Origin: Bacteroidota bacterium
Lineage (GTDB): Bacteria; Bacteroidota; Ignavibacteria; Tepidaquicellales; Tepidaquicellaceae
Length of the DNA: 32,724 nt
Assembly (NCBI GenBank): GCA_021286895.1
Contig: JAJTBN010000008.1
Span: 1-32,724, forward strand
Reading direction: 5' to 3'
In this document: piece by piece, positions 7,615-12,098 of the stretch
Layout: each line of letters starts with the position of its first letter
Position numbering within the stretch: position 1 is the first letter of the stretch
The notes under the pieces: model-generated
The model's input: only the letters and a program-made list of their open reading frames with translations
What the model was told of the DNA's origin: nothing
Database searches by the model: none
Position numbers and translations under genes: made by a program

Positions 7615-10184
7615 TCAGCGCTTTTTAGTAAATGTGAAACTTACATTATCGATTGTATCTCCGTCTTCGCTCTGCTTTATCTCAACAAACTTTATTTCGT
7701 CTGTCGTTTCGAGAGAACGCCCGTTTAGTTCATCGGGCGAAGGATAGATTCTGTACTTGCCGGGGGGAACATTATCGAAAATGAATTCGCCGTCAGAAAA
7801 AGTACGCGTTTCCATTTTAATTTTTCCGTCAACGGATTCCAGTAAAATCTTCAGCATTGAAACATGTTTTCCCGCCTGTTCGCCCGAAATTCCGACACTG
7901 CCGTTTATGATACCCGCCGCGTAAACAGGAACGGGAACTACCTTGAACCTGTTCGGGTCCACTTCGACACCGAAGGTTTTGTATTTAGGTCTGTAAAGAG
8001 GATTATCGAAAGAAACAGGCGACAATTCAAGTCTGTAAGAGGCATAGGGGTCGAGATCCGTGTATCTGTATTCTCCGTTTGACTTAATAAGTTTGCCCGC
8101 GTTTATCCTTGAGTCGAATTCCGTATTAAGAATTTTTTCATTTTCGTCGGGATAACCGTTTCCGTTCATATCAAGGAATGGAACGAGCGACAGGCCGCCG
8201 CGCGACACCATGTTTTGATTGTCGAAGAAAAGACTTTTCCTGAACTGGTCGTAACCGACCGAGCCGTACAGTGATTGCTGAAAATCCCAACCCGTACCCG
8301 CTCCTGAATATCCCGCGTTGTATCTACCGAATGATAAATCGAACCTGAACGTGAGCCCGCCCGAATAGTCGTTGTTCATGAAATCCCTGAACGCAAAAAC
8401 AGTCAGCCATCCCGCACCGAACACGCCTTTATCTATGTAAATTCCCGCGTTTGAAAACCTGCCCGAAGCATGGTCTATTTCGGTCTGCTGTCTTACCAGC
8501 ATATCGCTTAATATTCTGTACGAAAGGTTCAGTGAACTTCTTGAACCAGCATCATCGTAAGTTTCCGAAGTTTTGCTCCATGACGCGTTCGTTACCACGC
8601 TTCCCTGAAATCTTCTGTAATTTACGAACACTCCAGAATTAAGGAAAAGAAGTTTATAATTATCCGAGACTACGTTGCGGAAATTCATTCTTACGCTCAG
8701 TGATACGCTTTTGAATACGAGCGGAACAAACGATGATATATTTTCCTCTTCCCTGTAATTAAACCTGTTAAAGTATTCGTTCCTGCCGTACCTGATATAC
8801 GAGGCCGTCATGTAAATCTGTGAAGGCAGAAGCAGGCTGATGTTCGCGCTGCCTTTAAGGTTATGAAAGTAATCCGCGCTGAATATCAGTTTTTCAAGGA
8901 ATCTCGCCGATGTGTTCGCGTACGGATAAAATTTATTAATTCCCGGCTCGTTAAAATAAAGCAGACCCGCGCCCGAAGTAACCGCTTTCGTAATTCCCCA
9001 GTTTACGTTCGACTCTGTGAAGAGGTTGTGATTCTCAGTTTTAAGCGTTCCGCCGCTGACATTGTATTCAACGGTTTTTTCGGGAAGAAAATTAAACGGC
9101 ACCTGTATGACACGCTCTTCCGTTCTGATTTCCCCGGAGTTTCCGTAATATTTCAGCGTGATGTAGTTGGAACCGTAAAGAAGAGGAACGTTGAATTCAA
9201 AATATCCGTTATCATCGGATTTTGTGTATGCGATAAGTTCGTTGTTGATGTATAGTTCAACATCCCATTTTGACCCTGTCCTGTCAAATATTTTATAACT
9301 CCCGATAGTCCTGCGCGAAACCGGAGGCGAATTTGTAATCTGGAAACCCTGAGTATTACCAAGCAGTCCCGACTGCAGGCGCATATTTCCCGCAATAGCC
9401 TGTTTGAACCATTTGCGGTCATCAACAAACCTCCACCGCCACTCGGCGTTGTTCTTATCGAAAGCGTTTTTGTCGTCTCCATTTATACGGGCAATAAAAT
9501 CACCGCCGAAAATTTCAGAGCCGTGAGAAAGATTGTAATAGTACCTGTCGGACGCGGGGGATGAATGCGCGTAATTCAGATTCCAGTCAAGCACACCAAG
9601 CCCGAGCAATTTCCTTTTTCTCGGTATGAACAGGTCGACATCCTTTACTCCTGTCTGTTCGAACATATTCCTTCCGCGCAGAAGATTTCTTTCGAGTTCG
9701 GCCACGACCGGTAATTTGTTCTTTGACGTAAGATAAATTTCAAGACGGCTGAAATCCGCATCGAGCCTGATACCGAAGATATTTTCGAAAACCGAAGGCG
9801 AAAAAAACACATCCGAGCCGTTTAATACAGCGTCATCAGGTGATAATGAGTATTTTTTGTCTTTGATTACCGCGGTTTTTGACGCCGCGTTTATTTCATA
9901 GACGCTGTTTTCTTCTATGAAAAAACCCGAAATATCCGTACAGCTTTCCGAAAGTCTGAAGTTAATTTTAAGGTTTGAGAACAGTTCCGCGGCAGGGACG
10001 TAGATTGTTTTTCCTTTTATGAAACAATTTAATATGAAAGAGCCCGCTTTATCGGCGTTGATGCGGACAGGCGCTTCATCGAAGGATGATATGTTTGAAA
10101 GGATAGAATCCTGCGGTACCGCGGGCTGCGCGGCCGCGAACTTAACGAGCAAAAAAAAACCATATTCAGGATAAAGCGCCTCAT
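7615..10184 (-). CDS. Usher-like outer-membrane protein, frame interrupted in the signal peptide
   Basis: A long reading frame of 845 codons (open from a TTG at 10152) resembling fimbrial ushers, which thread pilin subunits through the outer membrane. Numbering from that TTG: residues 30-150 form a beta-rich periplasmic N-domain, 295-350 a plug-like Ig domain (SKWDVELYINNELIAYTK ... GSNYITLKYYG), about 360-640 barrel-like amphipathic strands, and about 655-670 a Ca-binding-like DMNGNGYPDENE element followed by two small C-terminal beta domains, one carboxypeptidase-regulatory-like (FIFDNVPPGKYRIYP). The natural start is an ATG at 10184, overlapping the chaperone stop as TGATG. It encodes MRRFILNMVFF, and with one more base in the A tract at 10151-10159 would continue LLVKFAAAQP as a clean signal peptide. 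As given, that start runs out of frame. Usher identity is by architecture and context, not by a search. Confidence 0.68.
10151..10159. repeat. Homopolymer A9 (T9 on coding strand) at the usher signal peptide
   Basis: Nine consecutive A on the + strand, flanked by C on both sides, fall 26-34 bases after the coupled ATG of the usher gene. With nine bases the ATG frame and the 845-codon frame are shifted by one. Ten (or seven) would join them. Such tracts are prone to slipped-strand mispairing and also to sequencing error. Confidence 0.85.
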
Positions 10185-10999
10185 CAGTTTACTGTCAGAA
10201 TGATTTTCCTTTCCGCGGTGTTCCCTTTTATTATCCTGCTCCCGGGTTCTTCTCTGTCCGTATTAAGCGACACGCTGATGTTGTATTTCCCCGGAGCAAG
10301 TTTTCCGGTCTCTATTTCTATTCTTTTATTCAGATCGTAATAAACCGAGATTTCCTGTTTCGAATTTTTTATTTCGTTGTCTTTTGAATCAGTGACGGAG
10401 GTTATGATATTGCCGATATATGCCGCGTTACCATCGCGTTTAAGACCGGCTGTCAATATAAGTTTGCTCCCGTCGTAAGAGCATTTGAGGTCCTGAATGT
10501 TTACGCCTGTCGAGACCTTACCTTTCCTGTAATTCAGGGCGATAACGGTCCGGAATTCGACGCCGAGTCCCGCGTTGATATTTTCTTTTCCCGTCGAATC
10601 CTCGGCGGCAACAACCTTTGATTTTATTACAGGCCGTCCCCAGTACTCGCCGTCGGTAAGCCCTTTTGGCTTTGCCGAAATTCTTACAGTCTGTTCGCCG
10701 AGCGGCGGAAGGATGAATTTCCTCGGATAAAAACTTATAAATTTAACTGCAGAGGGATCCGTTTCGTTTTCTTTTTCCGGAAAGTACAAAACAGTCTTGC
10801 CGAGCGAATCGGAGACGGGATATCCGAATTTCATTTCAATACTTACTTCCCAGGAAGAGTTGCTGGAATTATTTCTTACGACTATATAACTGTTTTTGTC
10901 GGCGTCGCTCATATGAACCGTTACGGGAGCAACCGTAACCTGAGCGAAGCACGAAATCGCCGTAAATACAAATAATATTGCCGCAAAAATTTGTTTCAT
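10184..10999 (-). CDS. PapD-like periplasmic pilus chaperone
   Basis: A 271-residue protein with a signal peptide ending at about residue 20 (VFTAISCFAQ). The mature N-terminus VTVAPVTVHMSDADKNSYIVVRNNSS matches the first strands of the PapD-type Ig domain. FYPRKFILPPLGEQTVRIS matches the F-G strand region preceding subunit binding, and DGEYWGRPVI resembles the DGEY(R/W) string of alternate-class fimbrial chaperones. A basic YRKG segment (about residue 158) sits where PapD has its anchoring lysine region. The family caps pilin subunits in the periplasm by donor-strand complementation and delivers them to the usher. It starts 1 base after the stop of the upstream pilin-like gene, and its TGA overlaps the usher ATG by one base. 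It is slightly longer than PapD. Confidence 0.75.
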   Translation of the reverse strand: MKQIFAAILFVFTAISCFAQVTVAPVTVHMSDADKNSYIVVRNNSSNSSWEVSIEMKFGYPVSDSLGKTVLYFPEKENETDPSAVKFISFYPRKFILPPLGEQTVRISAKPKGLTDGEYWGRPVIKSKVVAAEDSTGKENINAGLGVEFRTVIALNYRKGKVSTGVNIQDLKCSYDGSKLILTAGLKRDGNAAYIGNIITSVTDSKDNEIKNSKQEISVYYDLNKRIEIETGKLAPGKYNISVSLNTDREEPGSRIIKGNTAERKIILTVN

Positions 11000-11000
11000 G

Positions 11001-11495
11001 TCAGTTTGATAATATTGTTAGAATAATAATCACGGGCGTGTTGTAATTTCCCGCTTTCTGAACCTCGACCGGATTAACCGTTCCGCCGATTCTTATATAA
11101 TACTCTTTTGTCTTATCGTCAAAAGTCAGAGTCGTACCCGAATACGGATTGAACGGGATTCCGGGCTGATTATCGTTCGGGTTGACGCTTTGTGTCGCCG
11201 TGAAAGTTGTCTGCATAAAATCGCCGCCCGATGAAATGCCGCCGGAAATATTAAACGAAACTCCGACCATACAGCCGACGCCATAATTTCTTATAACTAT
11301 CTTTCCCGCGTCCGGTGATGTTTCGGAAACAGTTTTTCTCACTCCCGGTATCAATTCCCTGAAATCGAGGTTTCTCGAATATGTTATCTGCAAATTATCC
11401 TGCTGGGAATAGCATTCCGCGATTGCCGCCAGCATGATAACGGCGGCGGTCAGGCACGTTATGAACTTTAATATTTTATCTTTTCCGTTTTTCAA
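11001..11495 (-). CDS. DUF4402-like pilin subunit, second in the locus
   Basis: A 164-residue exported protein with a signal peptide (hydrophobic CLTAAVIMLAAIAECYSQ, cleavage near residue 31). The mature part begins QITYSRNLDFRELIPGVRKTVSETSPDAGKI and ends in an alternating hydrophobic strand (TPVIIILTILSN). The dLDFG/RELIPG-type opening, a glycine-rich middle (RIGGTVNPVEVQKAGNY) and length fit DUF4402, a family seen beside chaperone/usher genes and proposed to be pilin-like. It lies one base before the chaperone gene and after a terminator-like hairpin that separates it from its paralogue, so it may be a minor or tip subunit. A single Cys (GCMVG) means no intramolecular disulfide in the mature part. 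Confidence 0.7.
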   Translation of the reverse strand: MKNGKDKILKFITCLTAAVIMLAAIAECYSQQDNLQITYSRNLDFRELIPGVRKTVSETSPDAGKIVIRNYGVGCMVGVSFNISGGISSGGDFMQTTFTATQSVNPNDNQPGIPFNPYSGTTLTFDDKTKEYYIRIGGTVNPVEVQKAGNYNTPVIIILTILSN

Positions 11496-11567: not shown

Positions 11568-12098
11568 TTAATTTCCGGTATAATAAAAAGTAACCGTTAC
11601 CGTTCCCGAGTAAAGACCTGCCGGCTGCGAATATGTAGGCTGAACAGTGCCTCCGAGAAGCACATCCATCGTGCCGTCAGAGCCGAATACGGCATTCACA
11701 GGATTAGCGGGATCGAAATCGACTACACTGCCTCCGGGAAGTTTATAACCGCCGTCAGTCGGCGTGAACGCGATTATCATGTGCTCTTCGCCGCTGATGA
11801 GTTCGGGCGGAAGCGAAACTTCAATGCTGATTTCCTTGCCTGATTCTCCCATAATCGAGAATTTTCCGGCCGATGTTGAATTCTTATCGATAGTTCTTGA
11901 TATTCCCGGAAGAATATCGTTTCCGAAATCAAGGTCCCGTGTTGATACGACTGAAATGGGCGCCAGTACGGTTCCTTTCGCGCTTATTGTTGCAGTAAGA
12001 GGTTTTGGTGAAATTCCGTCAGTTTTATTCTGCGCATATACAGTATTCTGCATTAGGAATCCAAAAATAAGCGGAAATATGAGAACAAAGTTTTTCAT
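11568..12098 (-). CDS. DUF4402-like pilin subunit, first in the locus (candidate major subunit)
   Basis: A 176-residue exported protein with a signal peptide ending near residue 22 (FLMQNTVYAQ). The mature N-terminus has an extension (NKTDGISPKPLTATISAKGTV) that could act as a donor strand. It continues APISVVSTRDLDFGNDILPGISRTI and ends AGLYSGTVTVTFYYTGN, the C-terminal strand pattern of DUF4402. No cysteine occurs after the signal peptide. First position in the cluster and a hairpin with U-tract right after it are the usual arrangement for the abundant structural subunit. A Shine-Dalgarno-like AAAGGGG lies nine bases before the ATG. It is paralogous to the next gene (shared LDF...PG(I/V)(S/R)(R/K)T and a GGTVxP motif). 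Confidence 0.74.
   Translation of the reverse strand: MKNFVLIFPLIFGFLMQNTVYAQNKTDGISPKPLTATISAKGTVLAPISVVSTRDLDFGNDILPGISRTIDKNSTSAGKFSIMGESGKEISIEVSLPPELISGEEHMIIAFTPTDGGYKLPGGSVVDFDPANPVNAVFGSDGTMDVLLGGTVQPTYSQPAGLYSGTVTVTFYYTGN

Follow-up and report, generated by a model that had tools for sequence, protein, structure and literature searches.

How can an outer-membrane usher be made when the start of its signal peptide and its body lie in different reading frames? The window considered here, by which we mean the whole stretch of 32,724 nucleotides that was analysed, raises this question on its minus strand, at the junction between a chaperone-like gene and the usher-like gene that follows it. 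A preliminary description of this DNA had offered a choice between an error of one base and a mutational switch. This choice was incomplete, as it left out recoding at the level of the RNA or of the ribosome. Comparison of genomes leads us to propose that the usher is probably expressed by programmed recoding at a run of nine T, most likely through slippage of RNA polymerase, which would mainly add a U to the transcript.

One gene in two frames

On the coding strand, the region of the usher start reads AACTGATGAGGCGCTTTATCCTGAATATGG-TTTTTTTTT-GCTCGTTAAG. The TGA stop codon of the chaperone-like gene (10186-10184) is overlapped by an ATG (10184-10182). Twenty-five bases then lead to a T tract whose length is exactly nine (10159-10151, A9 on the plus strand), flanked by G on either side and followed by GCTCGTTAAG. 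The 0 frame opened by this ATG begins with MRRFILNMVFFCSLSS and stops after 51 codons (10029-10184, minus strand). It comprises the n-region of a signal peptide, then a non-conserved tail that looks like a dead end. Relative to this ATG, the usher body (7615-10188, minus strand) is shifted to the -1 frame, whose open stretch of 857 codons, between 10188 and 7618, is closed by a stop. Ahead of the conserved body, the only ATG, GTG or TTG codon in that frame is the TTG at 10152, at the very end of the tract. The preliminary description had placed the tract between signal-peptide start and body, with the ATG overlapping the chaperone stop and this TTG as the sole in-frame start: all this was borne out on the coding strand. 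It was also right in that translation from the ATG ends early, the length being 51 codons and not about 55. The locus is made of two overlapping open reading frames joined, in the sense strand, by an A/T run of a length at which bacterial polymerase slips.

Is the body truly that of an usher? Profile searches against Pfam and NCBIfam did not identify it as one, and it gave no match to the Pfam usher family PF00577. Its AlphaFold model, built on a 25-sequence alignment in replacement of a poor one based on five sequences (pLDDT 45), reaches a pLDDT of 87. The solved structures that resemble it most are FimD (E 3.9e-25) and PapC (E 3.6e-21), in a set of matches spanning E 3.9e-25 to 2.8e-18. As modelled, the body has the FimD/PapC usher fold, and the identity first proposed for it holds. 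Upstream of it, the chaperone-like gene (10184-10999, minus strand) codes for a secreted protein of 271 amino acids, 59-78% identical in four relatives, with no match of value in Pfam, NCBIfam or the PDB. Further upstream on the same strand come a small secreted protein without family match in Pfam or NCBIfam (11001-11495) and a DUF4402 protein (PF14352, E 1.3e-07; 11568-12098), both possible pilus subunits. The best reading of this gene set is a chaperone-usher-like cluster, in which the chaperone role is putative and without family match. It shares with the FimD and PapC systems the overall fold of the usher and an adjoining chaperone-like gene; it differs from them in the missing match to the Pfam usher model, in an identity of about 11-13% to FimD and PapC, and in its DUF4402 neighbour.

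The split in relatives

The search for homologues of the usher covered 29 genomes from the family of the home organism, which, like all our evidence, are assemblies, mostly MAGs. Five genomes besides the home genome gave a match, four of them close. Two belong to the same genus (G002 and G003, with 63 and 77% protein identity) and show an identical GG-TTTTTTTTT-GCTC, hence exactly T9 as in the home genome, in the same -1 relation to the TGATGA start. In another genus (G009, 55% identity) the run is T10 and the leader is 2 nt longer; the longer leader compensates for the longer run, and the relation is again -1. The last close relative (G007, contig C122) has kept T9, with two undetermined bases (NN) close before the tract. 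It lacks the ATG; if its sequence is taken at face value, the usher could be started in frame by a TTG that overlaps the stop of the chaperone, and the NN beside the tract led us to leave this locus out of the resolvable ones. In the small sample of four loci that can be resolved, run and frame relation are conserved in all. When the two frames are fused, each of these loci shows, as judged by eye, the parts of a signal peptide: a basic n-region, then a hydrophobic core, then small residues that resemble a cleavage site. The 0-frame reading frames extend over 51, 29, 13 and 24 codons, with unrelated tails. TGATGA is found at the chaperone/usher junction in four of the five loci (L001, L002, L003 and L006), which makes plausible the translational coupling to the chaperone stop that had been suggested before.

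The home genome is a draft in 330 contigs, where a wrong base in the assembly, or a decayed gene, comes readily to mind. This idea was rejected: three congeneric assemblies, independent of each other, share T9 and the split, and the usher body is intact and conserved. The preliminary description had itself set a comparison with homologues as a test; the relatives display neither ten T in a joined frame nor a tract replaced by other codons, and the split was kept.

Another proposal would make the upstream ATG irrelevant: the usher frame itself would supply the start, either TTG 10152 or some non-canonical codon. The TTG is indeed in frame in L001-L003, and ATC seems to be the start codon in distant relatives of family f8. 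Yet, in L006, the locus of G009, a TTA stands in place of the TTG, and the usher frame by itself has no normal start codon. Furthermore, an outer-membrane usher needs to be exported, while the start of the signal lies in the 0 frame, and a second split gene, described below, has a clearly conserved N-terminus in that frame. An own-frame start is accordingly most improbable at this locus.

The distant usher-like genes just alluded to (family f8, genus g25; L021, L025, L027, L028, L029, L030, L032 and L036) deserve a comment of their own. They have no ATG, GTG or TTG before the signal peptide. What they have is a conserved ATC codon, mostly as ATC TGC, often after a GGGAG-like motif. Their sequences suggest initiation at AUC, possibly another route to low translation of the usher.

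Similar runs in two other genes

An LpxL-type lipid A acyltransferase of the home genome is split at a T9 as well (G000:C165:13280-13289). The body of this lpxL-like gene matches PF03279 from position 52 of the profile onward (E 3.3e-45); the first 51 positions are absent, and the missing N-terminus is found in the other frame, ahead of T9. Exactly T9 with a -1 split is present in 20 of the 25 homologues in the family, over 12 genera (L067-L082, L084-L086 and L091), with a conserved N-terminus in the 0 frame and the body in -1. Of the remaining five, four lack the run and keep both parts in one frame; the fifth (L083, G006:C3) has T9 in frame. In the sister family, used as a control, all 12 lpxL genes are fused and without run. 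The constancy of this split over 12 genera speaks for its retention, not for any particular benefit. As for L083, slippage there would lower the full lpxL product rather than allow it.

A run of the same kind occurs in dnaX. It is A10 in 23 of 26 genomes of the family (L094-L119), A11 in one and A9 in one, and one genome has no run; in the home genome it is located at G000:C221:5853-5862. The protein has a conserved C-terminus that ends in LKELF-x-x-EEY; most genomes encode it in the 0 frame, the home genus in the -1 frame. The frame relation at A10 therefore flips between genera.

With these genes in mind, it is possible to weigh phase variation, which was the switch contemplated by the preliminary description: slippage during replication would toggle the length of the tract in DNA between cells. 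A repeat tract does lie at the coding start, a 5′ homopolymer in the gene of a surface organelle is the classical setting for phase variation, and slippage of DNA may occur at T9 regardless. Yet the joined state is found in none of the four resolvable usher loci and in none of the 20 lpxL loci split at T9. In this comparison, made at the species level, the length of the tract does not alternate between on and off states in related genomes, and it hardly varies across genera. Moreover, neither lpxL nor dnaX is a typical contingency gene. Phase variation is thus highly improbable. A conserved split in the usher, together with the same device in two unrelated genes, points to a built-in stutter site, and not to a sequencing error or a mutational switch.

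Polymerase or ribosome?

The stutter might be that of the ribosome. In a programmed -1 frameshift on T-TTT-TTT within the tract, the mRNA would be uniform and the protein product the same. An in-phase T-TTT-TTT heptamer is present in the 0 frame of both usher and lpxL, and the direction of the split is always -1 in these genes. Seven T would be enough for the heptamer, yet every split case has nine or ten. This length is kept whatever the codon phase, the usher run being read as TT TTT TTT T and that of lpxL as TTT TTT TTT. No stimulator recurs either: prediction of RNA structure near the run, limited to nested structures, gave no signal (mean z of 0.00 for lpxL and -0.69 for the usher), and no SD-like motif is recurrent near the run in usher or lpxL. 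Because there is no recurrent structure or motif, and because run length is independent of codon phase, -1 ribosomal frameshifting is disfavoured, and we hold it to be unlikely.

Slippage by RNA polymerase, the route that we favour, would work as follows. Translation would begin at the ATG overlapping the stop codon of the chaperone gene. On the T9 template the polymerase would slip in part of the transcripts, chiefly adding a U, and this would put the start of the signal peptide into the frame of the usher. Transcripts without slip would give nothing but a dead-end peptide of 51 residues. This would probably fix a ratio, one and the same mRNA giving less usher pore than chaperone and subunits. 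That the polymerase is the agent, how efficiently it would slip and what this would do to dosage are matters that we infer. A/T runs of nine are slippage sites in bacteria, and the polymerase slips efficiently at nine (PMC1088944; PMC5009743), with published efficiencies of about 15-55% (PMC4256274). At a similar efficiency, a minority to about half of the transcripts would encode an exportable usher. There is also a neutral alternative to a role in dosage: efficient slipping would let the frame at such runs drift, and the two states of dnaX fit this idea.

If polymerases slip at long runs, are these rare? The home genome has 24 A/T runs of at least nine in 3.07 Mb, some ten times fewer than the approximately 256 expected when counts of shorter runs, taken from 201 kb of this genome, are extrapolated geometrically, in line with slipping at such runs. 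As an argument for slipping this scarcity is weak, because G009 holds 179 of them (G002 has 63; both are raw counts): runs of nine or more are not generally avoided across the family. A mechanical screen for N-terminal splits, applied to all 24 runs of the home genome, was convincing only at the usher and the lpxL-like gene. When applied to 30 tracts each in G002 and G009, it returned, besides lpxL, candidates with ordinary starts nearby or of incidental appearance. The second GT9G of the home genome (L042) was discarded, as it is outside any open reading frame.

Known systems compared

The case nearest to the T9 site of the usher is that of mxiE in Shigella flexneri, subject to transcriptional slippage on a run of U (PMC1088944; PMC5009743). 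There too, two overlapping reading frames are joined when the run gains a base, and the long product is made only after slippage. MxiE, though, is a regulator of a secretion system and is not exported, whereas the run of the usher sits inside a signal peptide. In Thermus thermophilus, dnaX slips at A9 (PMC1088944): again a run of nine A/T acts as a polymerase slippage site, and dnaX of our home genome has its A10, but slippage in Thermus yields a shorter product, while here it would yield the only functional usher. Finally, in tssM of Citrobacter rodentium, slippage at A11 restores an interrupted gene of a secretion system, with an efficiency of about 20-25% (PMC4256274). Mending of an interrupted secretion gene is what the two would have in common; they differ in that both products of tssM are needed, whereas the short product of the usher is a non-conserved peptide. 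We found no earlier report of such recoding in Ignavibacterium, in lpxL or in ushers in the open-access papers searched, which leave out much of the literature. New elements are the gene itself, the placing of the run within a signal peptide, and the recurrence of such a site in genes that are unrelated, all within a single bacterial family.

What a stuttering site would mean for the cell

Under the preferred reading, recoding at T9, an apparently broken gene becomes a conserved recoding site that would gate the export of an outer-membrane usher, and in no fewer than 12 genera a core lipid A enzyme seems to rely on a slip of this kind. Automatic gene prediction would cut short or overlook the usher and the lpxL-like genes alike. 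It also becomes testable whether bacteria use polymerase slippage to set how much pore an assembly pathway receives for its chaperone and subunits. We may go one step further, tentatively, with an idea that has a small chance of being right: slips of RNA polymerase at unvarying A/T runs would serve this family of Ignavibacteria as a common layer of expression for core genes of the envelope and of replication, namely those for usher, LpxL and DnaX. Were this so, the efficiency of slippage, possibly dependent on conditions, would jointly set the dose of usher, the acylation of lipid A and the composition of the clamp loader.
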